NCBI GenBank assembly: GCA_008080685.1
Contig: VKGY01000018.1
Span: 14,534 to 63,641, forward strand
Reading direction: 5' to 3'
Origin: Spirochaetota bacterium
GTDB taxonomy: Bacteria; Spirochaetota; Spirochaetia; Treponematales; Rectinemataceae
DNA length: 49,108 nt
The translations under genes were made by a program, and so were the position numbers. Shown here one piece after another: positions 10,494-42,577 of the stretch; position 1 is the stretch's first letter; each line of letters opens with the position of its first letter. Under the pieces are notes generated by a model. It was not told where the DNA came from and searched no databases. It was given only the letters and a program-made list of their open reading frames with translations.

Positions 10494-11452
10494 ATGGTAA
10501 AGCAAAGAACGGCCGCCTCCATACTCATCGCCGCGCTGGTGCTCTTCATATCCTGCCCTCTGGCCGCCACGCCCATACCCACTCCTTCCGAGGGACCGCG
10601 GTATGTGTTTCTTTTCATCGGAGACGGAATGGGCAAGGCCCATGTCAGGGCTTTGGGAATCGAGCTTGAAGGGAAGGACATCTTTTCCTCCTTCCCCATC
10701 GCAGGGGAGATAGGCACCGACAACATTTCAGGCGGCACGACGGATTCCGCCGCCGCGGCTACAGCCTTGGCTACGGGATACAAGACATCCAGCGGAAAGA
10801 TCAATGTAAGCCCCTCAGGGCTCGCGGAGGCGGAGGCATCTTGGATCCTCTCGGGGTGGACGGCACAATGCCTGACCTGCGGGTTTTGGCGGCTGAACAT
10901 GGGTTTTCCGTGGTGACAGCCCGCTCAGCCCTTCCCTCCCTCAGCTCCGGCGCAGGTCCTACGATAGCCTTCGCCGAGGATTTGGACGCGGAATCTTCGC
11001 TGCCTTACCTTGCGGACAGGGAGCCAGGTGCCCAAAGCCTGGCGGATTTCGTAGCCGCGGGAATCCGGGTGCTCAACAACCCCCAAGGGTTTTTCTTCAT
11101 GATAGAAGGGGGCAAGATCGATTGGGCGAGCCACGACAATGACAGTCTCCGGATGCTGGGTGAAATGAAGGATTTTGACGCCGCGATCCGTGTAGCCCTT
11201 GGATTTTTACAGGCCCATTGGAATGAAACCCTGGTGGTGGTTACAGCGGATCATGAAACCGGTGGCCTTTCCGTCCAGGATCAGCCTTTCGCAGGCCGGC
11301 TAGACTGGTCCAAGACAGGCCACAGCGCCGCCAAAGTTCCGGTGTACGCCCAAGGAGTAGGCCAGGAACTCTTCCTCGGCATTTATGAAAATACGGGAAT
11401 TTTTGCCCGACTCAAGGCCCTCTTGGATGCCTCCTTGGCGGAGGATCCATGA
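10494..11452 (+). pseudogene. Alkaline phosphatase, split by frameshift/internal deletion near 10821-10838
   Basis: Upstream frame: signal peptide, 'VFLFIGDGMG', 'GGTTDSAAAATALATGYKT'. Downstream frame: 'GGGGILDPLGVDGTMPDLRVLAAEHGFSVV...FFFMIEGGKIDWASHDND...VVVTADHETGG'. The region expected between them is absent. Confidence 0.85.
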
Positions 11453-13309: not shown

Positions 13310-13385
13310 GGCATGACCATATAGCGGAAAATCACTCCTGGCAACTGGCTTTTCGATGTCGAAGCCAGGAACCATAAGGAAAGCA

Positions 13386-14248
13386 ATGGAAGTCGCGCCG
13401 CGGAAATCCCGATGGAACAAGCATGGAGACAGGCTCCTGGAACGCCATGGGCAGAGAGTCTGGAGGCTGGGCATTGACGCAGGCTTCTCCTGTCCCCATC
13501 GGGAAGATGGTAGGGGGAGGGGAGGCTGTGCCTTCTGCGCTCCAGAGGCGGGATTGGCGGCCTACCAGCACAAAGGCCAGGAAGTAGTCAGGGGCTTGGA
13601 AGAGCAAGTCTCCCGGGCAGTGGGTTTTACACGGACCCGCTACGAAGCCCAGTCTTTTTTCCTTTATTTCCAGGCCTATTCCTGCACGAACCTCCCTGCC
13701 GCCGACTTGGGCCGTATTTACGGAAGGGCAATCGAAAGCCTTGAAACGACAGCCCCCGGTGCTCTAAGGGGCATGGTAGTCTCCACCCGACCTGATTGCC
13801 TTTCGCCGGAAAAGGCGGAACTCCTGGCCGGCTATGCGGCCCTGGGACTCGAGGTTTGGCTCGAACTCGGCCTCCAGAGCGCCCAGGACAAAACCCTGGC
13901 GCGTATAAACCGGGGCCATGATTTCGCCGCATTCATTCAGGCGGCCCGCCAAACCGAAGGACTCGGATTGAGGCGGGCCTGCTCCGCCTTGTGCGGGGTT
14001 CGCGCCTGGAGCGGACCTTTCCCGCAGGGGAGTACTCGCCCCTCCACCCCGCGCGGCTTCCCGGCCTTTTGGCGGATTTGCTGGAGATCGTCCCTTGGGA
14101 TGTGGAAATCCTGAGGCTCAGCGCGGATTTCCCTAAGAACCAATGCTTGGATGTTTTTCCCCCGGCGGAAAAATATCAGCTTCATAGGGCTTTGGAGAAG
14201 GAATTGGAGGCTCGGGATTCGTGGCAAGGAAAAAGGGTGGTTCCATGA
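13386..14248 (+). pseudogene. TIGR01212-type radical SAM protein, disrupted by frameshift/internal deletion near 13973-13990
   Basis: 'CPHREDGRGRGGCAFC', 'FFLYFQAYSCTNLPA', 'LELGLQSAQDKTLARINRGHDF' in frame 1. The tail 'LLRLVRGSRLERTFPAGEYSPL...RLSADFP...LEARDSWQGK' is in another frame. Confidence 0.85.
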
Positions 14249-14520
14249 AGGCAATCCATGGTTTTGCCGTGGGCGAAGTCCAGGGCGTTGGCTACCGGTA
14301 TTCGGCGGTCCGTCAGGCGCGAGGCCTGGGGTTGGTGGGTTGGGTGAAAAACGAAGAAGACGGATCAGTAGAGTTTTGGGCCGAAGGACAGGAGGAGGAT
14401 CTCAAGGCCTTTGTCCAATGGGCATGGGAAGGTCCTTCTTCCGCCCGGGTTGACGATGTACGGGTGGAGTGGGTCATGGCCTCCGGGCGGTATGCTTCCT
14501 TCGGCGTCGCTTTTTCTTAG
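14245..14520 (+). CDS. Acylphosphatase
   Basis: 'GEVQGVGYRYSAVRQARGLGLVGWVKNEEDGSVEFWAEG'. Its start overlaps the end of the preceding gene. Confidence 0.93.
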   Translation: MKAIHGFAVGEVQGVGYRYSAVRQARGLGLVGWVKNEEDGSVEFWAEGQEEDLKAFVQWAWEGPSSARVDDVRVEWVMASGRYASFGVAFS

Positions 14521-16251: not shown

Positions 16252-16336
16252 GGAGCGGTGTCCGAGTGGCTTAAGGAGGCGGTCTTGAAAACCGTTGTAC
16301 CGCGAGGTACCGGGGGTTCGAATCCCCCCTGCTCCG
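16252..16336 (+). tRNA. tRNA-Ser (anticodon TGA)
   Basis: Acceptor GGAGCGG/CTGCTCC, anticodon loop CTTGAAA, long variable arm, T-loop GGTTCGAATCC. Confidence 0.95.
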
Positions 16337-16356
16337 TAGCCAGTGGAAACTGGTCT

Positions 16357-16444
<88 letters not shown>

Positions 16445-16450
16445 TTTCAC

Positions 16451-16524
16451 GAGGCTATAGCTCAGCTGGATAGAGCTTCAGATTGCGGATCTGAAGGTCG
16501 GAGGTTCGAATCCTCTTAGCCTCA
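16451..16524 (+). tRNA. tRNA-Arg (anticodon GCG as read)
   Basis: Acceptor GAGGCTA/TAGCCTC, anticodon arm TCAGA-TTGCGGA-TCTGA, T-arm GGAGGTTCGAATCCTCT. Confidence 0.93.
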
Positions 16525-16534
16525 TTCTTCTTAT

Positions 16535-16621
16535 GGAGAGATGCGAGAGCGGCTGAATCGGGCGGTCTCGAAAACCGTTGAACCTTCATTGGTTCCGGGG
16601 GTTCGAATCCCCCTCTCTCCG
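16535..16621 (+). tRNA. tRNA-Ser (anticodon CGA)
   Basis: Acceptor GGAGAGA/TCTCTCC, loop TCTCGAA, long variable arm. Confidence 0.95.
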
Positions 16622-16690
16622 CCTAGCCGCTGTCTGTCTTTGCTCCCGGAAGGAAGATGCGGTTTTGATTTATTTTCGTTTTTGTTGTTT

Positions 16691-16777
16691 GGAGAGATGA
16701 CCGAGCGGCCGAAGGTGCGCGATTGGAAGTCGCGTGTATCCGTAAGGGTACCGAGGGTTCAAATCCCTCTCTCTCCG
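16691..16777 (+). tRNA. tRNA-Ser (anticodon GGA)
   Basis: Acceptor GGAGAGA/TCTCTCC, loop TTGGAAG, long variable arm, GGTTCAAATCC. Confidence 0.95.
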
Positions 16778-16788
16778 TAGCATCCTGG

Positions 16789-16901
16789 AGCGCAAGAAGC
16801 CAGGCACTGTGCTCGTAACCACTGCGGAACCCCGCCAGGTCCGGAAGGAAGCAACGGTACGTGGAAGGTGCGGTGCCGCAGAGCGCCTGGCTTCTTGCGC
16901 T
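16789..16901 (+). ncRNA. ffs: Signal recognition particle RNA (bacterial small 4.5S type)
   Basis: Conserved tip 'CCAGGTCCGGAAGGAAGCAACGGTA' enclosed by 17-bp terminal stem AGCGCAAGAAGCCAGGC / GCCTGGCTTCTTGCGCT. Located immediately upstream of dnaX. Confidence 0.93.
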
Positions 16902-21914: not shown

Positions 21915-23405
21915 TTGAATAAAAAAGACTTTCCGCGTGTCCATTTCTATGATCAGGACTTTGTAGAGATCTACGATCGTACATGGGCATGGGTAGCCGA
22001 TTGCTGGACGAGCGGGGGACAGGGCTCGGGCTTCGAAAAAACTAAATTTTTCCACTACCCCCCAAAACCACTTTTGGATGTGATGGAGCAGGTTTTTTCA
22101 TCTTTTTTCCTCGTGTACAGCAATAGAATCTTCGCCGCCTCCAACGGCCTGGATGCCCTCTATGCCTGCCAGACCGAGGATGGGGCGATTCGCTCATCCT
22201 ACGATGTGGAAACCGGAGCTCCCCTTTTCAACCCCGATAACCCCGACGGCCTGATCCTTCCCCTCTTCGCGTGGGCTGAATACAACCTCTATCATAAAAC
22301 CGCCAACAAAAAGCGGGTCAAGGACATTCTGCCCTTCCTCGCCAAGCATTACAAATGGCTGGAAAAGACCTACAAGAATGCCAATGGACTCTATGCCACG
22401 CCCGTGGCCTCTTCGGGTATGGCGAATTCGCCTCGACCAAAGGCCAAATTCCTCATCGACTTCAACGCCGCCATGGCCATGAACGCACTCTACATCTCTG
22501 CCATGGGCGACATCCTCAACGACAAGGAAATCTCTTTCCAGTACAAGCGGGACTATTTTTCCTTAAAAACCCGCATCAACGGCAAAATGTGGAACGCCGA
22601 GGATGGCTTCTATTACGACCTGGGCGAGGATGAAGCCCAGATAAAGGTAAAGACTATTGGAACCTATTGGCTCCTTCTGGCTGAAATTCCCAACGAGGAG
22701 AGAGCTGAGAAACTGGTGGCCAAGCTCAAGGATCCCATGTATTTCGGCACCGAGAACCCCTTTCCCACCTTGTCGGCGGATCATCCTGAATACGATAAAA
22801 AGGGCAACGGCTACCGCGGCTCCGTGATAACCGCCTTTACCTTCATGGTCATCAAAGGATTGGAAAAGTATAATTTCTACGAGTTTGCCCGGGACTGCGC
22901 CATCCGCCACCTCTATTTTATCCTGGATTCCATGCACGCGGGCAATCACGAGGATGGAAGGGAAGGCCGGGAATCCCGGGGAGATGGCCAAGAAGGCCAT
23001 GGCCACGGCAAAGACCACAAACCCATAGTATGGGGGGCATATCAGCCCCAGTCCGAAGGCAAGGCATCTTGGTCTGGCCGGCCGGACTGGCCGTATCCTC
23101 ATTACCTGCCCTACAACGGACTTGCCAGCATCACCCTCATGATCGAGAACATCGTTGGCCTCTACGCCTCCCTGCCTAGGAAAACCGTGGACTGGATCAT
23201 TCCTAACCTGGAGATCATGGGCATAGAAAACCTCTCCCTCAAGCGCAACATGGTCACAATCCTCTCAAGCAAGTCTGGACGAGGTTGGGAAATCCACATG
23301 GAGAGCGAAAAACTCTATTATTTTACGATCAACGTGCTCAACAAGAAGAAAAAGACCCTGCCCATCCCCTCGGGCAAGTGTTCCATGCTGATCGACAAGA
23401 TTTAG
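21915..23405 (+). CDS. MGH1-like/trehalase-like (alpha/alpha)6 glycoside hydrolase
   Basis: 'LFAWAEYNLYHKTANKKRVKDILPFLAKHYKWLEKTYKNANGLYATP', 'SPRPKAKFLIDFNAAMAMNALYISAMGDIL', 'TRINGKMWNAEDGFYYDL'. Confidence 0.75.
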   Translation: MNKKDFPRVHFYDQDFVEIYDRTWAWVADCWTSGGQGSGFEKTKFFHYPPKPLLDVMEQVFSSFFLVYSNRIFAASNGLDALYACQTEDGAIRSSYDVETGAPLFNPDNPDGLILPLFAWAEYNLYHKTANKKRVKDILPFLAKHYKWLEKTYKNANGLYATPVASSGMANSPRPKAKFLIDFNAAMAMNALYISAMGDILNDKEISFQYKRDYFSLKTRINGKMWNAEDGFYYDLGEDEAQIKVKTIGTYWLLLAEIPNEERAEKLVAKLKDPMYFGTENPFPTLSADHPEYDKKGNGYRGSVITAFTFMVIKGLEKYNFYEFARDCAIRHLYFILDSMHAGNHEDGREGRESRGDGQEGHGHGKDHKPIVWGAYQPQSEGKASWSGRPDWPYPHYLPYNGLASITLMIENIVGLYASLPRKTVDWIIPNLEIMGIENLSLKRNMVTILSSKSGRGWEIHMESEKLYYFTINVLNKKKKTLPIPSGKCSMLIDKI

Positions 23406-29285: not shown

Positions 29286-29315
29286 TTGACAATTCCCGAT
29301 AACCAGGTTTAAACT
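29286..29315 (+). promoter_or_regulatory. Sigma70-like promoter at head of sugar operon
   Basis: Perfect -35 TTGACA, 18 bp, -10-like TAAACT. Confidence 0.55.
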
Positions 29316-29318
29316 AAG

Positions 29319-29351
29319 GATAACTTTTTTTATGACGTAAAAAAAGTTATC
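29319..29351. promoter_or_regulatory. Perfect inverted repeat, candidate operator for the ROK regulator
   Basis: GATAACTTTTTTTA-TGACG-TAAAAAAAGTTATC: 14-bp perfect arms, 5-bp spacer, immediately after the promoter and before the SBP gene. Confidence 0.75.
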
Positions 29352-29407
29352 GCGTCCCTACGCTATTTGCCATGGATGACGCGATCAATGTTCTTCAAGG
29401 AGGCAAT

Positions 29408-30694
29408 ATGAGAATCAAATCCCTCGTATGCGCGTTTCTGGTTTTGCTTGTCGCAGGAACAGCCTTTGCCAAACCAACCGAGATCACGTTCCAACTCGGC
29501 TGGGCCGTTGATTCCAGCAGGGGCAAGGCGATCCAGCCGATCGTCGACTTGTTCAACCAGCAGAATGCGGAAAAGTATTTCGTTAAAATGATGTCGGGCG
29601 ACAAGATCGACGCATCCCGCCTTCTCACCCAAGTGACGAGCGGAAACGCCCCGGATGTCATGCAGGTAAACTTCGCTATTCTGCAGGCCTTCGCCGCGGA
29701 AGACTTGCTTTCGACTATAACGGGTTTCAACGCTCTGATGGCGAAAGCGTATTCCAAGGATGTCGTCGCGAAAGTAACCTATAAGGACGCGGTATACGGT
29801 ATTCCCTGGGTCGGCCACACAATACAGCTCGTCTACAACGAGGAGCTGTTCAAGAAAGCGGGACTTACCAGGGCTCCGGCCACATGGGATGAACTCCTCA
29901 CCTACGCTAAGCAGATCAAATCAAGGACAGGCGTGGACGGACTTGCGATCGCCGCCGCCCAGCACTACGACACGGTGTGGATGAGTATGCCCATCCTCTA
30001 CGCCTATGGTGCACCGATTCTCAAGGGAACCCCTGGTTCCGGCTCCGAAGTCATTTCTCTCAGCGACGAGAGGAGCCTTGCCGCGATGGCCAAGCTCCAG
30101 GAATTCTACGCGCTCTATGTGAACGCGCCCACCGCGAACGGTGGTAACGTCATGGAAGATTTCAGGAACCAGCGGGCTGCCATGGAATTCCAGGGTCCCT
30201 GGGGCGTGACCGACATTTGGAAGAATGGGCGACCTTTCACCGCAAAAGCGGCACTGATGCCAGCGGGACCTTCGGGCAGATTCGCCGATGTCGGAATCGA
30301 AGCCCTCGTTGTGCCCTTGCGCAAACCAGACAAGGCGAAGCGCGAGGCTATTCAGGCATTTCTCGAATTTATGCTCGCTCCCCAGGCCCAGATGATGGTT
30401 ATGAATGGCGAACTCAATCCGGCCGATGGAAAGTACTATCCTTTCCGCGTTCCCATAAGGAACGACCTGTCCGGAACGGATTTTTTCAAGCAGTTCCCGG
30501 AACTCTATCCCTTCGTCGAAGGATTCTCTATAATTTGCGACACCGCGCCAGGACCCTATTGGACCCAGCTCGGCGCCGAAGTATGGAGCCCTGTGATGAA
30601 CGAGCTCGCCCTCAAAAAGATCACTCCCGCCGAGGCGGCTAAGAAGATTGAGACCAAGGGCAACGCGATCATCAAAGCTTTCTATAACAAGTAA
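29408..30694 (+). CDS. ABC sugar transporter substrate-binding protein (YcjN-like)
   Basis: Signal peptide 'MRIKSLVCAFLVLLVAGTAFA', SBP motifs 'VTSGNAPDVMQVNFAILQAFAAEDLL', 'YGIPWVGHTIQLVYNEELFKKAGLTRAPATWDEL'. Confidence 0.9.
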   Translation: MRIKSLVCAFLVLLVAGTAFAKPTEITFQLGWAVDSSRGKAIQPIVDLFNQQNAEKYFVKMMSGDKIDASRLLTQVTSGNAPDVMQVNFAILQAFAAEDLLSTITGFNALMAKAYSKDVVAKVTYKDAVYGIPWVGHTIQLVYNEELFKKAGLTRAPATWDELLTYAKQIKSRTGVDGLAIAAAQHYDTVWMSMPILYAYGAPILKGTPGSGSEVISLSDERSLAAMAKLQEFYALYVNAPTANGGNVMEDFRNQRAAMEFQGPWGVTDIWKNGRPFTAKAALMPAGPSGRFADVGIEALVVPLRKPDKAKREAIQAFLEFMLAPQAQMMVMNGELNPADGKYYPFRVPIRNDLSGTDFFKQFPELYPFVEGFSIICDTAPGPYWTQLGAEVWSPVMNELALKKITPAEAAKKIETKGNAIIKAFYNK

Positions 30695-30704
30695 GATCCA
30701 TTCG

Positions 30705-30764
30705 CCGTGAGGGACTCGGCGCGAGCCGGATCCCTCACGGTTATTCTTCCCCGCCAAGGCGGGG
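30705..30764 (+). promoter_or_regulatory. Two tandem intercistronic hairpins between SBP and permease genes
   Basis: CCGTGAGGGA...TCCCTCACGG (30705-30740, inner CGGC-GCGA-GCCG) and CCCCGCC-AA-GGCGGGG (30749-30764). Confidence 0.7.
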
Positions 30765-30789
30765 TACCGCGAAAAATTCCGGTGGTCAC

Positions 30790-31701
30790 ATGAAGCAATC
30801 AACCGGCACACGCCGAGCCTGCGTGAAAGATATCGCGGCCCAGGCGATGTTCCTGCCTTCCCTGATAGTGATAGTGCTCTTCACGTTCTACCCGATACTA
30901 TGGGCTTTCGTATCGAGCTTCAAATCGGTGTCGCTGGGAGGCCTCAGAAACGCGGCATTTTGGCAGATTCCGGGGAAATTCGTGGGTCTGTCCAACTACG
31001 TGGGCGTACTCCGGAACGGGGCGTTTTTCGAGGCTCTCATCAATACCGGAAAATACGCGCTATTCAACGTTCCTGTGACGTTATGCGGCGCTCTCTTTCT
31101 CGCGAATCTCCTTCGTAGAAAGGGTCGCGGCGTCTCGTTTTTCAGGACAGCCTTTTTCCTTCCCTACGTCGTTTCCCTCGTTTCCGCGAGCCTCATTTTT
31201 CTGACTCTTTTCAACGGGCAGAACGGTATCATCAACTATTTTCTCACCCTCGCGGGAGCGGAACCGGTATATTGGATGGCCGACTCCTTCTGGGCCATGA
31301 TCGTAATCGCCATGCTTGGAGTTTGGCTGAAGACAGGTTACTATATGCTGTTCTTTTTGGCCGGTCTGCAGAATATTTCCGAAGATTATTACGAAGCGGC
31401 ACGAATTGACGGCGCAGGAGTGTGGAGGCAATTCGTGAGCATAACGCTTCCTTCCCTCAAGCCGATAATGCTCGTCGTTCTCATTCTTCTGATGAGAGAC
31501 GTACTGATAGTGTTCCAGGAAGTCTACGTGATGACGGGAGGAGGGCCGGCAAATACAACCACCACGGTCGCCTTCCTCATCTACCGTGAAGCGTTCGCCA
31601 ATTTTAGGATCGGTTCTTCCTCGGCCATGAGCTTCTTCCTAGCGGGAATCGCCGTGATGATATCGTGGCTTCAGTCTCGCGTTCTGGGGGAGAAAAAATG
31701 A
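30790..31701 (+). CDS. ABC sugar permease (YcjO-like)
   Basis: Multi-TM; intact EAA loop 'YYEAARIDGAGVWRQFVSITLPSLKP'. Confidence 0.92.
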   Translation: MKQSTGTRRACVKDIAAQAMFLPSLIVIVLFTFYPILWAFVSSFKSVSLGGLRNAAFWQIPGKFVGLSNYVGVLRNGAFFEALINTGKYALFNVPVTLCGALFLANLLRRKGRGVSFFRTAFFLPYVVSLVSASLIFLTLFNGQNGIINYFLTLAGAEPVYWMADSFWAMIVIAMLGVWLKTGYYMLFFLAGLQNISEDYYEAARIDGAGVWRQFVSITLPSLKPIMLVVLILLMRDVLIVFQEVYVMTGGGPANTTTTVAFLIYREAFANFRIGSSSAMSFFLAGIAVMISWLQSRVLGEKK

Positions 31702-32506
31702 GAAAGCTGAAAAGTCCCGGGCTGCCCCGTATGGCTATCCTGTTCGTCGTTGCTGTGGCTTTCGTGTTTCCGCTCGTATGGATTCTATTTTCCAGTTTCA
31801 AGACGGACCTCGAAATAGGAAAGTTCCCTCCTGTCCTCTTCCCCGCCCAATGGAAATTGACGAATTATTCCATCGTGTGGGAACTGATGGATTTTGGCGC
31901 GGCTTTTCGCAATTCGCTATTCGTTTCGACAGTGGGCACAGCCTTCAATGTTTTGCTGGCGGCTTTGGCTGGTTACGCGCTATGCAAGGGCAACGTGTGG
32001 GGTGCCAGGATTTTTCTGCCCCTCATCGTTGGGACCTTGGTCGTGCCGCCCGCTTCTATGATCCTGCCGAACTTTTTTATCATTAGTAAGATAGGTTTGT
32101 ACGATAGCCTTTGGGGGTTGATTCTTCCCTTCGCAGTTTCCAGCTTCGGCATTTTTTTCATGAGGAATTATCTCGAGGGTGTATCCAATGAGCTTATCGA
32201 AGCCGCCAGGATCGACTTTTCTTCGCCATTATCCTACCGGTCGCCAAGCCCGCCATCGCATCGCTTTCGATCATCTCCTTCGTCAACAATTGGAATGCGT
32301 TCACGATGCCCTTGGTGCTGTTGAAGAGTGAGGAAAAATTTACTCTGCCGCTCAGGCAGGCCTACATGGCACGCGCCACGGACAACCCGAGCTGGGTGCT
32401 GATCCTGGCTGCAACCTGTCTCGCAGTCATTCCTGTGGTATTCATTTTCCTTGCCCTGCAAAAACAGTTCGTCACGGGCGTAATGGAAGGCGCCGTAAAA
32501 GGATAG
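31698..32506 (+). pseudogene. ABC sugar permease (YcjP-like), frameshifted at EAA loop near 32216
   Basis: Frame 1 ends '...NELIEAARIDFSSPLSYRS'. Another frame resumes 'FFAIILPVAKPAIASLSIISFVNNWNAFTMPLVLLKSEEKFTLPLRQAY...GVMEGAVKG*'. Confidence 0.85.
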
Positions 32507-32511
32507 AAAAG

Positions 32512-33573
32512 ATGCACAAGGCACTAATCGCGACTGCGCCTCACGTGGCCTCGCTCGCGGAATACTCCGATCGGGAACTTGGTCCCGACGAGGCGTTGAT
32601 TCGCACCCTATTTGCGAGCCCCAAGCACGGCACCGATCTTTCCGATTTTCGGGGCGAGAGCGCGTTCATGGATGAGAAGTTTGATCCCGAGTGGAACATG
32701 TTTGTTCCGCGCGCCGCCGACGAGCCGAGAGGAGTGCTTTTCGGTTCCTGGATTATCGGCAACATGTTCGCGGGTCGCATAACAAGAACCGGACGCGATG
32801 TCGCGGATTTTCGAGAGGGCGATCTTGTGGTTTCATACGGTCCCATTCGCGAAACGCAGATCGTCAAGGCCAAGGGAAATTATAGGCTCAGGAAAATAAA
32901 CGATATTTTGTACGCGCCCAACGCGATGTGTTACGATCCGGCGCAATTCGCGCTGGGAGGCGTGCGGGACGCAAACGTGAGGCCAGGCGATGCGGTCGCG
33001 GTATCGGGGCTCGGTGCCATCGGGCTGGTAGCGGTGAAGTTGTGCAGGGCTGCGGGAGCCCGGCCGGTCTTCGGGTTCGACCCATTGCCAGGGCGAAGGG
33101 CTTTGGCGATTTCATGGGGCGCCGATGCGGTGTTCAATCCGCTCGAAGCTGATGTCGGGCTGGAATTGAAGAAGCATACGGATCGACGAGGTGTGGACGC
33201 AGTAATCGAAACGAGCGCCTCGCCGCTTGCCTTGCAGGCGGCGCTCAAAGGCTTGGGATACGGCGGCACGATAGCGTTCGTGGGATTCGGAAAGGAAATA
33301 AAGGGCGGTTTGAATTTCGGACGCGAAGCACATTTCAACAATGTGAAGATTGTGTTTTCGCGCGCGAGTTCGGAACCGAATCCGGAATATCCGCGATGGT
33401 CTAGGAGGCGGATCGAGGACACGGTGTGGCGTATGCTCATGTCGGGGGAGCTCGAATGCGCGGACATGATCACTCCCATAGTTCCATTCTCCGAATCTGC
33501 CGAAGCGTACATGAAATACGTCGATCGGGAGCCCGACAAGAGCGTTAAAATGGGAGTGAAATTCAATGTTTAG
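32512..33573 (+). CDS. ycjQ: Zn-dependent dehydrogenase, YcjQ-like (D-guloside dehydrogenase family)
   Basis: Remembered YcjQ-like stretches: 'KHGTDLSDFRG', 'CYDPAQFALGGVRDANVRPGD', 'NFGREAHFNNVKIVFSRASSEPNPEYPRWSRRRIE'. Confidence 0.8.
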   Translation: MHKALIATAPHVASLAEYSDRELGPDEALIRTLFASPKHGTDLSDFRGESAFMDEKFDPEWNMFVPRAADEPRGVLFGSWIIGNMFAGRITRTGRDVADFREGDLVVSYGPIRETQIVKAKGNYRLRKINDILYAPNAMCYDPAQFALGGVRDANVRPGDAVAVSGLGAIGLVAVKLCRAAGARPVFGFDPLPGRRALAISWGADAVFNPLEADVGLELKKHTDRRGVDAVIETSASPLALQAALKGLGYGGTIAFVGFGKEIKGGLNFGREAHFNNVKIVFSRASSEPNPEYPRWSRRRIEDTVWRMLMSGELECADMITPIVPFSESAEAYMKYVDREPDKSVKMGVKFNV

Positions 33574-34378
33574 ATTGGGAACCCAGGACAAGGATTTCCT
33601 GCCGATCGGTTTAGTAGAAAAGTTCGAGACCCTACGCTCGCTCGGTTTCGACGGATTCGAGATAGACGGGAAAACCCTGGTGGAACGATTCGGCGAGGTA
33701 AAAGCTGCTATAGCGTCTACCCGTTTTCAGGTGTTCTCCGTCTGCGGTGGTTACAGAGGGTGGATAGGGGATTTCGATGAAGTCCGTCGAGAATACGCAT
33801 TGTGCGACATTGAAATTATTCTAGAGAAGGCCGGTGAGATCGGCGCGTCGGGAATAGTGGTTCCGGCCGCGTGGGGCATGTTCTCCAAGCGCCTGCCCCC
33901 CATGACGCCGCCGCGGAGCGACGTGGACGACAGGGCAGTTCTTCTGGATTCCCTAGCCAGGCTCGAACGCGTGTCGGCGCGGACCGGGACTCGAGTGCAT
34001 TTCGAGCCGCTCAATCGGTACGAAGACCACATGGTCAACACGGTGGATCAGGCGCTCGCTATAATTGACAAAGGCGGCTTCGATCGGGTTTCGGTACTTC
34101 CCGATTTTTTCCATATGAACATAGAGGAAGCCGATATTGCGCAAACGCTTCATGACACGGCGGGGAGATATTCACAGGTACACCTCGCTTCTTCCCAACG
34201 TTTCCAACCCGGAACGGGGCATTTGGATCTTGTGTCCGCATTCGGTGCCCTCGCCTCGACAGGATTTGACGGCTGTGGAATATTCGAATGCCGAGTTCTA
34301 GGCAACAACCCGATGGAGGCATATAGGAGATCGGTCAGATTCGTCCGGGATGCGGCGGATAAGGCGGGGCTCGCATGA
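33566..34378 (+). CDS. ycjR: TIM-barrel sugar isomerase/epimerase, YcjR-like
   Basis: 'GFDGFEIDGKTLVERFGEVKAAI', 'CGGYRGWIGDF', 'GIVVPAAWGMFSKRLPPMTPPRS', 'FEPLNRYEDHMVNT', 'DFFHMNIEE'. Confidence 0.82.
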   Translation: MFRLGTQDKDFLPIGLVEKFETLRSLGFDGFEIDGKTLVERFGEVKAAIASTRFQVFSVCGGYRGWIGDFDEVRREYALCDIEIILEKAGEIGASGIVVPAAWGMFSKRLPPMTPPRSDVDDRAVLLDSLARLERVSARTGTRVHFEPLNRYEDHMVNTVDQALAIIDKGGFDRVSVLPDFFHMNIEEADIAQTLHDTAGRYSQVHLASSQRFQPGTGHLDLVSAFGALASTGFDGCGIFECRVLGNNPMEAYRRSVRFVRDAADKAGLA

Positions 34379-35457
34379 AAAAGATGCGGGTCGCCATCGT
34401 GGGCGCGGGAAACATAGCCCGTACCGCCCATATACCCTCGTACCTGGCCGATGGAAGAGCCGAAATAGTCGCGTTGTGTGATTCAAAAATCGAATCCGCG
34501 CGCGCAGCGGCTTCCTTGTGTGGATTTCCCATGATTTACGGGTCTATCGACGAGATACTCGCTTCCGAAAAGCCGGACGCGGTGAGCGTGTGCGTGCCGA
34601 ATTCGGCACACTACGATGCCGTCCTTCGCGCGATTGACTCGGGAGCGCATGTACTGTGCGAAAAGCCGCCAGCGTTGAATTCGCGCGAATCCCGAGAAAT
34701 GGAATTCTTGGCTATGCGGAAGAAAAAGGTGCTCGCCTACAACTTCCATCTGCGTGCTTCGCCGGAAATCGTCTTCCTCAAGGGCTTACAGAAATCGGGA
34801 ACTTCAGAACCGACATCAGCGCTCGGCACCGTGTACGCATCCGAAGCGCGGTACATCAGAAGGCGCGGCATTCCTGGATGGGGTTCGTTCACCGATTCCT
34901 CCGTCCAAGGTGGTGGTGCCTTGATAGACATAGGAGTCCACGCGCTCGATCTTGCATGGCACCTCATGGGGGAGCCTGTTCCAGTATCCTGCCTCGCGAC
35001 TACATCCGACAGGATTGGCACGCGCGGCGGAACCGGTGATTTCGGAGCATGGAGTGGAGAATCCTTCGGTGTTGAAGACTCCGCCTTCGGCTTCATCCTT
35101 TTCGAGGGAGGAGTTAGCCTATCCCTGCAGGCTTCCTGGGCGTTGAATATGGAAGAACGGAAAAAATTTTCTGTCCGCCTGTACGGCGACTGCGCAGGGG
35201 CGGAGCTTTTCCCGCTTCGCATTTTTGACGCCGCGGGAACAAGGCAAAAATCGGAAGGCCAACCTGAAGACAACCTCGCCGATACTACCGTCCTGTACCA
35301 AAAATCGGTCTCGGCTTTCCTCGACGCCTGCGAGGGGAAGGGGAATCCTTTATGCTCAGCGAGGGATGGAACCATCGTTCAATCAATGATCGACGCGTTA
35401 TATCTGTCCGCACGCACGGGTTCGGCGGCTCCGATCTTCGTTGAAAGGGATAGATGA
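34375..35457 (+). CDS. ycjS: GFO/IDH/MocA-family oxidoreductase, YcjS-like
   Basis: 'VAIVGAGNIARTAHIPSYL', 'AHVLCEKPPALNSRE', 'GGGALIDIGVHALDLAWHLMG'. Confidence 0.8.
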   Translation: MKKMRVAIVGAGNIARTAHIPSYLADGRAEIVALCDSKIESARAAASLCGFPMIYGSIDEILASEKPDAVSVCVPNSAHYDAVLRAIDSGAHVLCEKPPALNSRESREMEFLAMRKKKVLAYNFHLRASPEIVFLKGLQKSGTSEPTSALGTVYASEARYIRRRGIPGWGSFTDSSVQGGGALIDIGVHALDLAWHLMGEPVPVSCLATTSDRIGTRGGTGDFGAWSGESFGVEDSAFGFILFEGGVSLSLQASWALNMEERKKFSVRLYGDCAGAELFPLRIFDAAGTRQKSEGQPEDNLADTTVLYQKSVSAFLDACEGKGNPLCSARDGTIVQSMIDALYLSARTGSAAPIFVERDR

Positions 35458-37175
35458 TGGCAACCTTATCTGAAAAGACACAAGCGCGGCTGAGGACCGA
35501 ACTCAATTTTATTTTCGAGAGCGATCACGCAACCATTGAAAAAATCGAACGCGAGATTGGCGCAATGGCGGCCTCGGCGCGCACAGTCAGCAATCGGGAC
35601 ACATGGTTGATTACCTATGGCGACTCGCTCAAACAGCATGGCCAGAAAGGGCTTCATCTCCTCGCCCGATTCTATGAAAAATATCTCGGGGAAATCATCA
35701 GCGACATGCATATTCTGCCGTTTTTCCCTTGGTCGAGCGATGATGGTTTTTCGGTCATGGACTATTACCGCATAGATCCCAAACTCGGTGATTGGGACGA
35801 CGTAAAAGATTTGCGGGACAAATGCGGACTGATGTTCGACGCCGTTCTCAACCACATGTCGTCGGAAAGCGAGTGGTTCAAACGATTTCTCAACGGCGAT
35901 CCGCGATTTTCGCGATATTTTATCGAAGTCAAGGATGACTGGGATTTGGAGAGGGTGTTTCGACCGCGAACGCTCCCCCTCGTATCAGAATTTGAAAGCC
36001 CTTCCGGCATCCGGAAACTCTGGACGACTTTCAGCCGTGACCAGATTGATCTGAACGCGGGCGACCCCGACGTCTTTCTGGAATTCTCGAGAATACTGCT
36101 CTTCTATTCGTCGATGGGCGCGAGGGTCATCAGACTGGACGCCATCGGTTTCTTGTGGAAAGAACCCGGCACTTCTTGCATGCACCACCCCAAGACACAT
36201 GCGATAATTCGGTTTTGGCGAGCCTTACTGGACGAACTCGCGCCAGGAACCCTGGTTATCACGGAAACGAACGTTCCTCACGCCCAGAATATCTCCTACC
36301 TCGGATTAGGCGGCGACGAGGCGCACATGGTGTATCAGTTCCCGCTGCCTCCCCTCGCGCTCCACGCGTTGCATACCGGAAGCGCGTGTGAAATAAGAAA
36401 ATGGCTGGCTACCGTGGAGAGCTCGCCACCGGGCACGACGTATTTCAATTTCTTGGCTTCACACGACGGCATCGGAGTACTGCCGGCCTCGGGATGGCTG
36501 GACGAATCACAGTTGTCGGCGATGATCGAAAAGGTCATTCGTCATGGCGGTCATATTTCGTACAGGAAAAACCCTGATGGCTCCGAAAGCCCCTACGAGA
36601 TGAATATAACCTATTTCGAAGCGGTATCCGATCCTTCGGAGCCGGAAGACTTGAGAATAGCGAAATTCATCGCCGCCCATTGCCTCCTTCTTTCCGTGCG
36701 AGGCGTGCCGGCGATCTACATACACAGCCTTCTAGGATCGCTCAACGACGAATCCGGTTACAGGCAATCGGGGATTAAAAGACGAATAAACAGGGAAAGA
36801 CTCGATTTCGCCTCGCTCTGCGACGAGTTGGACGATGCCGCGCATCGTCGAGGCAAGGTTTTCAGGGGACTGTCGGCGCTTCTGCACGCTAGAAGTAATT
36901 TGAAGGCCTTGGATCCTTATAGTGCGATGAAGGTGCTTGAATGCGATCATCGCGTAATCGCGCTGGAAAGAATATTGCCTGACGGCGCGGAACGCGTACT
37001 GTGCCTAGTGAACGTGTCCTCGGACAGGATTTCTCTGGCAGAATTGCTTTCGGGATTGCGAGGAGAGGGGGCCGAATCATGGCCAGCCGGCAATGAATAT
37101 TTCGATGCGATTTCCGGTCAATCGGGAATACATCACATCGAGTCCTATCAGGGACTCTGGTTGTCGATTCGTTGA
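35454..37175 (+). CDS. GH13_18 sugar phosphorylase (glucosylglycerate phosphorylase/YcjM-like)
   Basis: 'DTWLITYGDSLKQHGQKGLHLLARFY', 'HILPFFPWSSDDGFSVMDYYRIDPKLGDW', 'GARVIRLDAIGFLWKEPGTSCMHHPKTHAII', 'VITETNVPHAQNISYLGLGGDEAHMVYQFPLPP'. Confidence 0.88.
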   Translation: MMATLSEKTQARLRTELNFIFESDHATIEKIEREIGAMAASARTVSNRDTWLITYGDSLKQHGQKGLHLLARFYEKYLGEIISDMHILPFFPWSSDDGFSVMDYYRIDPKLGDWDDVKDLRDKCGLMFDAVLNHMSSESEWFKRFLNGDPRFSRYFIEVKDDWDLERVFRPRTLPLVSEFESPSGIRKLWTTFSRDQIDLNAGDPDVFLEFSRILLFYSSMGARVIRLDAIGFLWKEPGTSCMHHPKTHAIIRFWRALLDELAPGTLVITETNVPHAQNISYLGLGGDEAHMVYQFPLPPLALHALHTGSACEIRKWLATVESSPPGTTYFNFLASHDGIGVLPASGWLDESQLSAMIEKVIRHGGHISYRKNPDGSESPYEMNITYFEAVSDPSEPEDLRIAKFIAAHCLLLSVRGVPAIYIHSLLGSLNDESGYRQSGIKRRINRERLDFASLCDELDDAAHRRGKVFRGLSALLHARSNLKALDPYSAMKVLECDHRVIALERILPDGAERVLCLVNVSSDRISLAELLSGLRGEGAESWPAGNEYFDAISGQSGIHHIESYQGLWLSIR

Positions 37176-39460
37176 AGCCGACACAAGAGATAGTCGAAAT
37201 CCGCACTTCCCGACAATAATCCCTCACGTATCCACGGCAAGTTGTCGTCAATCAGGATTCCCGCCTCCATGAGTTCATCTCCACCGGTGGTCCTGTCGCG
37301 GGCGAAAAGGAGAGATCTTACGCGGGATACGGCCTCCGGCGGGGTGGATTCCTTGAGCTTGCCGCTGTCGTACTGGAACGCGAGCGAATAGGATGCCCTG
37401 GGATCAAGGCCTGCCAGCCTAATCGACCGGAAGGGTGGATCGGGGAGCTGGAGCGGAAAGTATATGCCGCACAACGCTTCGGCGCCGTCAGGGCTGACTA
37501 CCAACCAAGCGCACTGCGAGGAGGGCGGTTCGGAGGGAGCGGCGAGCCTGAAAAAATTTCCGTGCGCCACTAGGTCGCGGACCTCCTTGTAAAAAGCCGT
37601 CCAACCCGCCAGAGCTTCCAGCTCTTGCCGGCTCGCCGCGAGCAGGTCGAGTTCGAATCCGTAGGAAGCGAATATCGCGACGGAAGCCCTCATTCCGGGA
37701 CGCGTTACCCGGGCGACCTGGTGATTGGGCGAAGCGCTGAAATGTGCTGACATTGTCCGAAGCGGGTATGCGAAGGAAGTGCCGTATTGAATTCCGATTC
37801 TCGATATAGGGTCGGTATTATCGCTCGCCCACGCCATGGGAGCCCAACGGAGAAGCCCAAGATCGAATCGTCCTCCTCCCGAGGCGCAGGATTCGATCAG
37901 CAAGGTGGGAAATGCTTCAGAAAGCCTGGCGTAGAGCCGGTATACGCCGAGCATGTAGCGATGGAACAATTCACCCTGCCTGTCGGCCGGGAGGAATGTC
38001 GAATAAAAGTCACTCATCATCCGGTTCATATCCCACTTGATGTACGAGAGGCGCGATTCGGAAATCAATTTCGACATCGATTCGAACATGAGATCGACGA
38101 CGGCAGGATTGGAAAAATCAAGGACGTATTGATTCCTGGAGGGAAGTGGCGAATAACGCGACGTGCCGATCCTGTATCCGGGATGCGCGCGGAAAAGTTC
38201 ACTGTCCTCAGACACCATCTCAGGCTCAAACCACAGCCCCATCCCGAGCCCCATCCCGGCTAGTTCTTCGGAGATGGGCCAGCCATCGTCGATTACGAAT
38301 ATTTCTGCTCCGACTTGTGCTGCGATTCTCGCCTGCTTGCGGATTTTTTCCGTCTCGATATCAAAATAATTACCCTCCCAGCTGTTGTAGACCACCGGCA
38401 TGGACCTGTCCCTCCATGCGGGAGCGAGGAGATTACCTCTGGTCAGGTCATGCATTCGATGGGTGAGGCCGGACAATCCATGTGGGGAATACACGCACAC
38501 CGCCTGAGGACTCGTGAATGTCTCACCAGGTCCAACAATCCAGCGGAACATGTCGGGCGATATTCCCATTTGCGCACGGACTACTCCAAAAGGATCGACT
38601 TCAGCGCCCGAAAAGAAATTACCGCTATACACCAGGTTGAATCCCCAAACTCGTCCGGATGTTTCGCTTGTTAAGGAATCACATAACGCAAAAAATGGAT
38701 TATGCCACCAACTTCCTGAGGTCCCTCCGGAAGATCCTATGACATGCCTTCCGGGAGTGAGAGTCGCGCGGCAAAAATTACGTTCCCTGTTGACCGAGCC
38801 CTGGAGGAAGATGAGGTCGTATCCATTGGGAGGAAGATCAATGGATAGACTCATGAGCGAAAGCAGTTCGACTCCCGATTTCCCTCTATTGGAGATTTCG
38901 GCCCACCGGATGATGGCGTCTCGATTGGGAAGGACTCCCCACATGAGGCGCAGCTCTAGCCCGGCGGCTTCATCGATAAAAAGTATAGAAAGCGTTTCGG
39001 CGCGGCTATCTGCCCAACGGCCGGAGCCAGTGTCGAGGCAGGGTAGATCCTGTAGTAAGGGGAGTCCAGGATTTACGGTATGGCTCGAGTACCGGAATTG
39101 CGTAACACAAGTGCCATCCGCGAGCCTTACGAGAAACGAGGGCGTCCTGAAATCCCCCCGGCCTGCCGAAGAATATTCCATTCTGACGCGCGACGCGCTC
39201 AGCGAGGCTAGAGCCGGATTTGCGTTCCATGAGACTTTGGCCACGTCGCTCAAGAAGCCCCAGGGAAATTGATTCTTTTCGCAAATCGGAACATAGCGAC
39301 TGGGTGCGTAGGCTCCCAATCCTCGATAACTCTTCTCCAGTGAAAGCTTTCCGCCATAATGCAGACTACCTGGCAGTCCATTGGGCAGAATGGTGAAAAT
39401 GTAACTCGAACCCGCGGTGGTCAGGTGAAATTCTGGACCGTCGTTCAAAACTTCTATCAT
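37148..39460 (-). CDS. GH36 alpha-galactosidase, apparently missing a segment after IDDGW
   Basis: 'VYNSWEGNYFDIETEKI', 'GAEIFVIDDGW', 'GMGLWFEPEMVSEDSELFRAHPGY', 'YIKWDMNR', 'LIESCASGGGRFDLGLL', 'WASDNTDPISRI'. Confidence 0.93.
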   Translation of the reverse strand: MIEVLNDGPEFHLTTAGSSYIFTILPNGLPGSLHYGGKLSLEKSYRGLGAYAPSRYVPICEKNQFPWGFLSDVAKVSWNANPALASLSASRVRMEYSSAGRGDFRTPSFLVRLADGTCVTQFRYSSHTVNPGLPLLQDLPCLDTGSGRWADSRAETLSILFIDEAAGLELRLMWGVLPNRDAIIRWAEISNRGKSGVELLSLMSLSIDLPPNGYDLIFLQGSVNRERNFCRATLTPGRHVIGSSGGTSGSWWHNPFFALCDSLTSETSGRVWGFNLVYSGNFFSGAEVDPFGVVRAQMGISPDMFRWIVGPGETFTSPQAVCVYSPHGLSGLTHRMHDLTRGNLLAPAWRDRSMPVVYNSWEGNYFDIETEKIRKQARIAAQVGAEIFVIDDGWPISEELAGMGLGMGLWFEPEMVSEDSELFRAHPGYRIGTSRYSPLPSRNQYVLDFSNPAVVDLMFESMSKLISESRLSYIKWDMNRMMSDFYSTFLPADRQGELFHRYMLGVYRLYARLSEAFPTLLIESCASGGGRFDLGLLRWAPMAWASDNTDPISRIGIQYGTSFAYPLRTMSAHFSASPNHQVARVTRPGMRASVAIFASYGFELDLLAASRQELEALAGWTAFYKEVRDLVAHGNFFRLAAPSEPPSSQCAWLVVSPDGAEALCGIYFPLQLPDPPFRSIRLAGLDPRASYSLAFQYDSGKLKESTPPEAVSRVRSLLFARDRTTGGDELMEAGILIDDNLPWIREGLLSGSADFDYLLCRLQRIDNQSP

Positions 39461-39472
39461 AGTTCCTCCGAA

Positions 39473-40639
39473 TTACGGCAGGGGGAAAAGGACATTCTTC
39501 ATAAATTCCTCCCCCATGGCCTCGAGGACCGAATCGTCGGGGAGAGCTGAAAATTCTATCCTCGCTGCCGATTTGAACGGCCAGAGAACTTTTTCCCTTA
39601 CGGTTTTTCGCACATGGTTATGAAATTCCAGCGGTGCGAGATGAAGCGGACCACCTACGACAATGAGCTCGGGATTTAGAAGGTTGACCACATTTGCGAG
39701 CACCGAGCCAAGAGTATCGGCAAGAAAGGAAAGCACTTCCAGAGCGATACGGTCGCCACGCACGGCGACCTTGCAGATTTCGATGTAATCGGAAACGACG
39801 ACCGTTCCCTCGCTTCGCCTCGTGTAGAGCTCAATCGCGTGAGCCTCCGACAATTCGATCCCGATACAGCCGGTATTGCCGCAGTGGCAGGCCGAACCGC
39901 CGGAAATCGAGGCGGTATGTCCAAGCTCGAAGCCTCCGCGCGGAAGAATGAGAAGCTGGCTGTCATGCTGGTACGACATGCCTACGCCGGCCTTTACCCA
40001 GACATAGACGGTGTTGGATGCTCCTTTCGCGCAACCCCGGCGCAGTTCGGCCAGAAGTAGGGCATCGGTGTCCTTGTAGACTTGGCAGCATGTTCCTGTC
40101 AAATTTTTCAGAATACCGGGGAGGTCGAATTCGGACAATTTTAACGGAGGGGAATTGAGTACGAGGCTGTCGGCGGCGCGGACTTGGCCTGGAACATTCA
40201 TCACGCAGCCTATGAGCGCTTTTGAAGCGGGATCGGACATTAGGCCGCCCGCTGTTTCCTCGACGAGGGCTTTCGCCGCATCGTTTCCAAGCACTCGTCT
40301 TTGGATGCTCCTTCGGGCAAGGATATTTCCCGCGAGGTCGATGAGGGTGCAGGACATTCCCGACACGCTCAGACTACCCGAAAGAACAGTTCTGCCTTTT
40401 GGATTCAACCCGACGATGACGGGCCTACGCCCTCCTGTCGAGCCTCCCATCCTCATTTCGCGAATAAGGCCTTCGGAGATGAGGTCATCGACTATGGCGC
40501 CGACGGTCGCGGGGCTGATACCAGTGGTTTTAGCGAGTTCGAACCGGCTGGTCTCGCGACCTGCGGCGATGACAGAAAAGATGATCGCTCTATTGTTCGT
40601 GCGGAGCGTTTCGTGATCGTAGCGTTTTTCTCCCACCAT
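39473..40639 (-). CDS. ROK-family transcriptional regulator
   Basis: N-terminal wHTH 'SRFELAKTTGISPATVGAIVDDLISEGLI', 'FELGHTASISGGSACHCGNTGCIGIELS' (ROK zinc motif), 'LNPELIVVGGP'. Confidence 0.93.
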   Translation of the reverse strand: MVGEKRYDHETLRTNNRAIIFSVIAAGRETSRFELAKTTGISPATVGAIVDDLISEGLIREMRMGGSTGGRRPVIVGLNPKGRTVLSGSLSVSGMSCTLIDLAGNILARRSIQRRVLGNDAAKALVEETAGGLMSDPASKALIGCVMNVPGQVRAADSLVLNSPPLKLSEFDLPGILKNLTGTCCQVYKDTDALLLAELRRGCAKGASNTVYVWVKAGVGMSYQHDSQLLILPRGGFELGHTASISGGSACHCGNTGCIGIELSEAHAIELYTRRSEGTVVVSDYIEICKVAVRGDRIALEVLSFLADTLGSVLANVVNLLNPELIVVGGPLHLAPLEFHNHVRKTVREKVLWPFKSAARIEFSALPDDSVLEAMGEEFMKNVLFPLP

Positions 40640-42499
40640 TCAGAGACTCCGCAAAGAGCTGCCTTCGCGGCATTCCAACAAAATGTCGCACATGCGCAGT
40701 GCGCCGGCCGCCGACCAGGCCTGCGGCGAGCAGGCGAAAGGATGAGGTACGGCGGTCAGAACAGCCTCGCATATGCGCGCCGCCTCGGAATGTAAACCGC
40801 GCTCGAACATTCCATCGGCAATGATCGCGTTGTCATGCGGCCACACGGCTCCATTGTGATAGGAGAGGGGATTGTAGCGGGCTGCTCTATCGCTCAACGT
40901 TCGTACGCCCCAGCCCGAGAACAGATCCGGCTTTAGAAGCCTGGCAGCAAGGGCTCGTGCTTCCTCTACGGATTCCAGGCAGTAGGGGAAGAAATGACCC
41001 GCATCGGAAGAAGGCGTTTCGAGGGCCTGGTTGTTTCCGTCGAGCGCCAAAGCGTACAAGCTATCTTTAGCCAGCCAGAATTTCTCTCGTATTCTTTTTG
41101 ACAGGGCGCGAGCTTCATTTCGGCAGATTATGGAAAGCTTGGCGTCGCCATCAATGGCCGACAAATCGGAGCACGCCATCAGAGCGCCGTAGGCGTATGC
41201 TTGTATTTCTGAAACCGCGAGCGGAGGTTCCGCCAAACTGCCGTCGGGGAAACCCATTGAATCCTTGGAATCCTTCCAAGACTGTACCACTAACCCGGTG
41301 GTGCCAAAGTCGGAGGAAAAACGTATAAACCCCCCGCCATCCTCCAACTTCAGGCGAAGCCATGCGAGGGCCGCCCGCCAGGAATCGCGTAATTCGGTCG
41401 AAAGCCGGGAGTTCCCGCTCTGGCGGGTAAACCGGCCCAAAAGAATGAGAAAAAGAAGCGTGGAATCGGCGCTCCCATAATATCGGGAAAAGGGTATAAT
41501 TCCGCGCCGCGAAAGTTCACCGGGCCGCGCTTCGTGAAAAATCTTGCCGGGTTCCTCTTGTTTCGTGGTAGTAAATTGCGTGCCCTGGATTGATGCGGCG
41601 TATCGTAAAACCCCTTCGGCGAGCTCGGGCCACCGCCCGAGGAAAAATCCCGCAGCAATGAACGAATCGCGCCCGAAGGGAACGGCAAAATAGGGTAGCC
41701 CCGCAGCCGGTACGAGCATTCCATTCTCGATCAACATAAGCGATTCGATATCGTACAACGCTATTCTCACAGATTCTGCGAATGGATTGCGTTCATTCAG
41801 CAAATCCTCGAATCTTTTGCGTAAGGGACTTCCCCTTGATTTGCCTGAAAATCCTGCGTAAAATTGGGCACCATCGTTAGGTTTGCCGCAAGCATCACCA
41901 CAGTCGCCATCGCGAGAGGCGTCTTTCACCCCGGAATCCGAAGAGAATTCAGCCGTAACCCTCAGGCCCAGCCTGCCCTTGACGGGGACTTCGATAGCCC
42001 AGGACGCAGAGCCATCTCGCTTAACCGCAGGCTCGGGTGAAAATGAGATGTCGCATCGCATCGGGATGCCATCACCTGCAAAAGCTCGCCACGAAAAGGA
42101 GTCGACTGTTTTTACCTCGGGAATTTCCTTGGAGAAAATCGGCAGTCTGAGGGCCATCATGTCGACAAAATCGGTATCGGCTGACAGGGTACATTCGAAA
42201 AATTTCGGCGCCAGGGAATAATTTTCAAAGAATATCTCATCGACAAAGCCGGAGGGATTGAGAAATAGCTGACGCAGGACGGCCCAATCGGCTCCATGTC
42301 GAATCGAGGAGGAGAAAACTTCCATCAATGAGCCAGGACCAGCTTCGGAACGAGAGAGCATGGTTGCATCCCGAAATTCCCATTCGTAACGCGACAAAAA
42401 GCGGGTATCCCTATAATAGAACCCCGCGAACGGCGCCTCCGCTCCCCGGAATGCACCGGGTAGAACGAGCATGGTATCCAGACTTTTCAGGCAAATCAT
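40640..42499 (-). CDS. Amylo-alpha-1,6-glucosidase/glycogen-debranching-like protein, apparently missing a C-terminal segment
   Basis: 'FAGFYYRDTRFLSRYEW', 'GLPYFAVPFGRDSFIAA', 'LSYHNGAVWPHDNAIIADGM', 'VPHPFACSPQAWSAAGAL'. Confidence 0.88.
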   Translation of the reverse strand: MICLKSLDTMLVLPGAFRGAEAPFAGFYYRDTRFLSRYEWEFRDATMLSRSEAGPGSLMEVFSSSIRHGADWAVLRQLFLNPSGFVDEIFFENYSLAPKFFECTLSADTDFVDMMALRLPIFSKEIPEVKTVDSFSWRAFAGDGIPMRCDISFSPEPAVKRDGSASWAIEVPVKGRLGLRVTAEFSSDSGVKDASRDGDCGDACGKPNDGAQFYAGFSGKSRGSPLRKRFEDLLNERNPFAESVRIALYDIESLMLIENGMLVPAAGLPYFAVPFGRDSFIAAGFFLGRWPELAEGVLRYAASIQGTQFTTTKQEEPGKIFHEARPGELSRRGIIPFSRYYGSADSTLLFLILLGRFTRQSGNSRLSTELRDSWRAALAWLRLKLEDGGGFIRFSSDFGTTGLVVQSWKDSKDSMGFPDGSLAEPPLAVSEIQAYAYGALMACSDLSAIDGDAKLSIICRNEARALSKRIREKFWLAKDSLYALALDGNNQALETPSSDAGHFFPYCLESVEEARALAARLLKPDLFSGWGVRTLSDRAARYNPLSYHNGAVWPHDNAIIADGMFERGLHSEAARICEAVLTAVPHPFACSPQAWSAAGALRMCDILLECREGSSLRSL

Positions 42500-42520
42500 T
42501 CGGCTCGGCCTCTTGCTTAC

Positions 42521-42549
42521 TTTATAACCCAAAAAAAGCCAGGCGCCAA
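42521..42549 (-). promoter_or_regulatory. Sigma70-like promoter for the amylo-glucosidase/ROK/GH36 operon
   Basis: Minus strand TTGGCG - 17 bp - TATAAA, ending about 20 bp upstream of ATG at 42499. Confidence 0.5.
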
Positions 42550-42577
42550 GTCATCATTGGCCCAGGCCTGGCTTGAT
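42530..42577 (-). terminator. Rho-independent terminator-like hairpin read on minus strand, overlapping the promoter
   Basis: Minus strand AAGCCAGGC...GCCTGGCTTTTTTT with inner GCCAA/TTGGC pairing, followed by a T7 run. Confidence 0.55.

Follow-up and report, generated by a model that had tools for sequence, protein, structure and literature searches.

The ycj gene cluster of Escherichia coli K-12 (ycjMNOPQRSTUVW-ompG; NC_000913, 1370216-1383961) is the closest described relative of the locus reported here. In its core, YcjQ (annotated in K-12 as D-guloside 3-dehydrogenase) oxidises C3 of the sugar, YcjR epimerises C4 and YcjS reduces the product, according to the E. coli annotation and a 2024 paper (PMC11543891). 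YcjM phosphorolyses glucosylglycerate (PMC7178133). The E. coli enzymes have been assayed, their natural substrate apparently not having been established in the literature that we found, and the 2024 paper describes a binding screen of YcjN in which no ligand was found (PMC11543891). Here we describe a ycj-type locus in a 49,108-nt window of a Spirochaetota genome (contig VKGY01000018.1; coordinates below are positions in this window, and plus and minus refer to its strands). The locus is a genuine relative of the E. coli sugar-remodelling genes, and we hold with moderate confidence that it remodels glycosides in the ycj manner and is adapted to a glycerate glycoside taken up by the cell. In place of the E. 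coli importer and outer-sugar enzymes, ycjQRSM is here accompanied by another transporter and by other enzymes that would trim sugars.

As in E. coli, genes for a substrate-binding protein (SBP) and two permeases are followed by ycjQ, ycjR and ycjS in the same order, with a YcjM-type phosphorylase in the operon. This order had been proposed in an earlier reading made from the sequence alone, and every gene was found at its place. The Q-R, R-S and S-M pairs overlap by 8, 4 and 4 nt, and we therefore regard the plus-strand genes as one coupled operon. The locus also differs from that of E. coli. YcjM comes last rather than first, the importer is not closely related, and YcjT (the GH65 kojibiose phosphorylase), YcjU, YcjV, the LacI-type regulator YcjW and OmpG are all missing. 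In addition, a second operon on the minus strand (37148-42499) converges on the first; it consists of a GDE-like hydrolase gene, a ROK repressor gene that abuts it directly and a GH36 gene, which is the convergent set that the sequence-only reading had listed.

The identity of the three core enzymes is well founded. BLASTP against E. coli K-12 returned identities of 56% for YcjQ (4e-138), 50% for YcjR (1e-94) and 41% for YcjS (3e-87), each over most of the length. The best PDB match of the window YcjR is E. coli YcjR (6wn6, E 9e-82; next best 1e-23), and all four metal-ligand positions, as inferred from the AP_endonuc_2 family, are kept (E147, D180, H206 and E241). An IQ-TREE phylogeny sets it in a 31-sequence clade with E. 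coli YcjR (support 100/97), apart from a paralogue in the same genome. Quick trees place the window YcjQ inside a 34-row clade with E. coli YcjQ (SH-aLRT 100) and the window YcjS inside a 24-row clade with E. coli YcjS (SH-aLRT 99). The sequence-only reading had staked its YcjQ/R/S assignment on such a phylogeny, and these well-supported clades bear it out. Terminal branches are long throughout (R 0.91, Q 0.68, S 1.31, M 1.34). Within the family, 29 genomes were searched and none has a YcjR orthologue; elsewhere in the phylum sample, 2 genomes out of 392 have one. On this distribution we reject vertical inheritance, and the gene was either gained by transfer or lost widely. Directly after the metal-ligand histidine, the YcjR of the window and of three other loci (L019, L052 and L020) reads ASS, where other YcjR sequences read ADN or ADS; the importer is not YcjNOP-like in any of these four loci. 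The ASS sequence may mark a different substrate.

The GH13_18 enzyme is 44% identical to E. coli YcjM (BLASTP, 8e-153). A review of this subfamily reports that a (T/S)ETN motif and a loop-A Glu together distinguish glucosylglycerate phosphorylases (GGaPs) from sucrose phosphorylases (PMC7178133). The window protein carries both published marks, TETN and the loop-A sequence SPYE, and these signature residues back its earlier designation as a predicted GGaP. The ETN motif is present in all 101 further homologues gathered from the surveyed loci; the loop-A pattern, which demands particular flanking sequence, was recognised in 58 of 102 sequences. In nearly half of the GGaP-homologue loci of the phylum, a glycosyltransferase gene related to that of L019 adjoins ycjM, often convergently (among them L134, L137, L138, L140-L142, L144, L145 and L147), and the two may form a synthesis and breakdown pair for glucosylglycerate.

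To place the locus among its relatives, we surveyed 80 loci with a YcjR relative, taking one genome per species, together with E. coli and two more genomes of the phylum. Among the surveyed YcjR loci, none besides the window has the four genes Q, R, S and M in the absence of T. The complete set, with T and U as well, is found in 48 loci (two of them with a GH36 gene nearby), seven loci want U alone and five have only Q, R and M. A T-less ycj locus is thus uncommon but not unique. The absence from the locus of the GH65 phosphorylase, the beta-phosphoglucomutase and the LacI regulator, which the sequence-only reading had pointed out, was confirmed (neither YcjU- nor YcjW-type genes are present), and for GH65 it extends to the whole genome, in which we found no match (89% complete). 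In the window variant QRS and YcjM are retained with another importer and without YcjT/YcjU, which indicates that both the importer and the outer-sugar step are exchangeable. It follows that the conserved core would be QRS plus glucosylglycerate phosphorolysis.

What the core acts on is suggested by a recurrent neighbour. A glycerate kinase gene (PF02595) lies in 14 ycj-type loci, mostly from Bacillota and one from Limnobaculum. Many of these loci are related, so that the count overstates their independence; the stronger argument is the variety of positions and lineages, the gene standing between R and M in L010, after M in L019 and L052 and after T in Bacillaceae (further examples include L017, L018, L024, L031, L047, L053, L058, L060, L064 and L067). 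In a Treponema metagenome-assembled genome (L020), genes for YcjM, YcjR, a 2-hydroxyacid dehydrogenase and a relative of MGH1-like glycerate-glycoside hydrolases stand in a row. Because YcjM releases glycerate and glycerate kinase recurs, ycj-type loci fit the catabolism of glycerate glycosides, which suggests that these clusters break down sugar-glycerate compounds. The survey of locus variants that the sequence-only reading had called for thus pointed to a more specific class of core substrate, the glycosyl-glycerates, that it had not proposed. PF02595 is absent from the window genome, which instead has a GckA-type glycerate kinase elsewhere (PF13660, E 3.6e-68). An MGH1-like (GH63-type) hydrolase gene lies 6 kb upstream of the locus (21915-23402), and relatives adjoin YcjM in L020 and L139. 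We rejected it as a pathway member, since its match to the L020 enzyme is partial in length and only 33% identical, and since it sits among housekeeping genes.

Features of the locus and its candidate control elements, in order of position; "." marks an element without assigned strand.
Feature	Position	Strand	Support
Promoter-like pair TTGACA-18-TAAACT	29286-29315	+	consensus scan, 10/12 matches
Candidate operator, perfect inverted repeat GATAACTTTTTTTA-TGACG-TAAAAAAAGTTATC	29319-29351	.	14-nt arms, 100% complementary
SBP of sugar ABC transporter (SBP_bac_8 / SBP_bac_1)	29408-30694	+	Pfam 1.8e-28
ABC permease 1, MalF/UgpA type	30790-31701	+	Pfam BPD_transp_1 3e-14; 29% to YcjO
ABC permease 2, MalG/UgpE type	31698-32506	+	frameshift ~32216 in EAA motif
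YcjQ orthologue, zinc-type dehydrogenase	32512-33573	+	56% to YcjQ over 349 aa
YcjR orthologue, predicted 3-keto-glycoside C4 epimerase	33566-34378	+	50% to YcjR; PDB 6wn6 E 9e-82
YcjS orthologue, predicted Gfo/Idh/MocA-type 3-keto-glucoside reductase	34375-35457	+	41% to YcjS
YcjM-type GH13_18, predicted glucosylglycerate phosphorylase	35454-37175	+	44% to YcjM; TETN + loop-A SPYE
GH36 alpha-galactosidase-type enzyme	37148-39460	-	Pfam Melibiase 2e-110; PDB 3mi6 1.8e-152
ROK-family repressor, winged helix-turn-helix (HTH) + ROK	39473-40639	-	Pfam ROK 5e-31, HTH_24 2e-6
GDE-like (alpha/alpha)6 hydrolase, GDE_N_bis + GDE_C/MGH1-like	40640-42499	-	Pfam 2e-17; PDB 7vma 3e-77
Intrinsic-terminator-like hairpin with T-run	42531-42574	-	fold -28.5 kcal/mol, z -3.2

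The pathway that we propose takes its Q, R, S and M reactions from E. coli biochemistry, as given by the K-12 annotation, the papers cited here and general knowledge. The ABC transporter would import a glycerate glycoside, from which the GDE-like and GH36 hydrolases, to judge only by their neighbours, would probably trim outer alpha-linked sugars. YcjQ would act on a residue of gulosyl or similar type, oxidising its C3. The 3-keto sugar would then be epimerised at C4 by YcjR and reduced by YcjS to a glucoside, and YcjM would split the resulting glucosylglycerate into glucose 1-phosphate and glycerate. The outer sugar is probably hydrolysed and not phosphorolysed, with the GDE-like enzyme, and GH36 perhaps as well, taking over from YcjT/YcjU; a different route for its removal is consistent with the missing GH65. 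For both the glycerate aglycone and control by ROK, it is the neighbouring genes from which we infer them. Several observations weigh against this scheme. No glycerate kinase lies within the locus, and in the M tree the window YcjM, on a long branch and with a support of 68, appears to fall outside the main ycj-linked YcjM clade. The GDE-like and GH36 genes stand beside ycjM in none of the 43 GGaP-homologue loci of the phylum, the GDE-like gene adjoins none of the surveyed YcjR loci, and the link of both enzymes to the pathway is their adjacency in one genome. Finally, both permease 2 and GH36 are damaged in the current assembly, the former by a frameshift and the latter by the loss of 26 residues.

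The most serious alternative is that the plus operon is an ordinary ycj pathway that has lost kojibiose phosphorylase and its mutase, and that GDE-ROK-GH36 is an unrelated neighbour devoted to alpha-glucans or alpha-galactosides. We lean against this explanation but consider it a real possibility. The two operons lie on opposite strands, the GDE-ROK-GH36 combination was found in none of the roughly 120 related loci examined, and a search for an operator common to both operons found none, the candidate repeat lying only ahead of the plus operon, so that no shared site links them. Against this, the 3' ends of the YcjM and GH36 genes overlap by 28 nt with no gene between the operons, and distant GH36 genes occur near the ycj clusters of two Paenibacillus (L057 and L063; 31-32% identity to the window GH36). 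Homologues of the GDE-like enzyme are rare: the phylum sample of 393 genomes holds 5 that have one, the window genome included, and the other four directly follow a LacI-SBP-permease-permease set, from which we conclude that GDE-like enzymes of this kind belong with sugar import. Taken together, it is plausible that the two operons are functionally linked, mostly on account of their adjacency in one genome. The branched or alpha-galactosylated substrate of the sequence-only reading finds no support as stated there, given a single convergent operon, distant GH36 genes in two Paenibacillus and an incomplete GH36 in the window.

The damaged genes raise the question of whether the locus is decaying. 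In permease 2, EAARID is read in one frame and LFFAIILPVAKPAIASLSII...KG followed by a stop codon in another, with about 19 nt apparently missing from the usual EAA motif. In GH36, the 26 residues are absent after DDGW by comparison with all nine aligned homologues (junction ~38278/38279), while the nucleophile (KWDMN) and acid/base (SDNTD) motifs are both kept. A locus in decay would account for the permease frameshift, the partial loss of the GH36 barrel and the long end branches of the four ycj proteins. However, the reading frames of Q, R, S and M are uninterrupted, and R and M, whose active-site motifs were checked, have kept them. Moreover, similar internal gaps with a change of frame occur in two conserved genes of the window that are unrelated to the locus: an alkaline phosphatase gene (10500-11450, gap ~10.85 kb) and MnmL/YtqA, a radical SAM gene of tRNA modification (13356-14250, gap ~14 kb). 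This suggests systematic small deletions in the current assembly (215 contigs, 2.54 Mb, 89% complete), and because these genes are broken similarly, assembly error is likely the simplest account of the breaks in permease 2 and GH36. Locus-specific decay we judge the less likely cause and, as an explanation of the locus, improbable.

Two further explanations concern the substrate. Once oxidised at C3, gulosides and galactosides give an identical 3-keto compound, and an alpha-galactosyl substrate would therefore be compatible with YcjR if YcjQ accepts it. Such a substrate is possible. QRS might then act as a nucleotide-free galactoside-to-glucoside converter, supplying YcjM with glucosylglycerate made from imported alpha-galactosyl-glycerate, and GH36 would remove any additional alpha-galactosyl units; this elaboration strikes us as unlikely, but if it were true, galactosyl-glycerate would be a natural substrate of a ycj pathway. 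It is most unlikely that the locus serves raffinose-type sugars, with GH36 freeing galactose, the GH13_18 enzyme acting as a sucrose phosphorylase and QRS as a side activity: the pairing of GH36 with a GH13_18 phosphorylase is classic for the raffinose family, and such a locus is reported for Ruminococcus gnavus (PMC6521584), but TETN and the loop-A Glu are published marks of GGaPs inactive on sucrose (PMC7178133), the window enzyme is far nearer to YcjM than to the solved sucrose phosphorylases, and we rejected the sucrose/raffinose reading on this signature.

The importer offers little guidance on specificity. It is, judging by sequence, of the same type as YcjNOP but not closely related to it: the window SBP has no BLASTP match to YcjN, and with permease 1 only distantly similar to YcjO, the YcjNOP orthology asserted by the sequence-only reading does not hold. 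A search of 344 further genomes from the phylum for relatives of the SBP (E<=1e-35) found none from which transporter specificity could be read. As for control, the candidate operator, with its 5-nt spacer, lies just past the -10-like hexamer and ahead of the SBP gene, and is the sole copy in the 2.54-Mb genome when up to three mismatches are allowed. The promoter-like pair is weak evidence alone, 10/12 matches being equally frequent in shuffled sequence. The ROK protein, which has both HTH and ROK domains and whose best NCBIfam similarity is to NagC/Mlc (below the cut-off), is a reasonable candidate binder of the repeat. On the minus strand, ATG 42499 is favoured over TTG 42532 as the GDE start, which leaves about 31 nt between the start codon and the strong terminator-like hairpin ahead of it, with no gene upstream on that strand for the hairpin obviously to terminate; it is possibly a leader attenuator or a remnant. 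A riboswitch before the GDE-like gene was rejected, there being no Rfam match above the gathering score. The genes that flank the locus are unrelated to it: on the upstream side they encode an acyl-CoA synthetase, on the downstream side a gamma-glutamyltranspeptidase and a deacylase-like protein. Further upstream, five tRNA genes are followed by a small bacterial signal recognition particle RNA (16252-16895).

The recurrence of YcjM and glycerate kinase with YcjQ and YcjR across Bacillota and beyond points to the glycerate glycosides, a concrete set of compounds. The repeated presence of glycerate kinase in ycj clusters, those of Bacillota and of one Enterobacterales genome, provides a lead to the natural substrate in E. 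coli itself, where a glycosyl-glycerate reading would give the ycj genes a physiological role. Set beside the other described systems, the window locus shares features with each. Q and R adjoin a YcjM-type phosphorylase in the Bacilli loci L010, L019 and L052, and the latter two also resemble it in their non-YcjNOP transporter and in the ASS of YcjR; all three differ in having a glycerate kinase beside M and no GDE, ROK or GH36 genes, and L019 and L052 in having GH4, glycosyltransferase and GH65 genes. TETN and the loop-A Glu are common to the window and to the GGaP loci of Meiothermus, Spirochaeta thermophila and E. coli (YcjM), but in most GGaP loci the gene is alone or beside a glycosyltransferase, whereas the window copy is tied to QRS. 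Lastly, four genomes belonging to the same class have LacI-SBP-MalF-MalG-GDE operons (L096-L099) that encode homologues of the window GDE-like enzyme (32-34%, near full length); in those operons the gene comes immediately after a transporter of its own, with a LacI-type regulator in control, whereas in the window it heads an operon with ROK and GH36.

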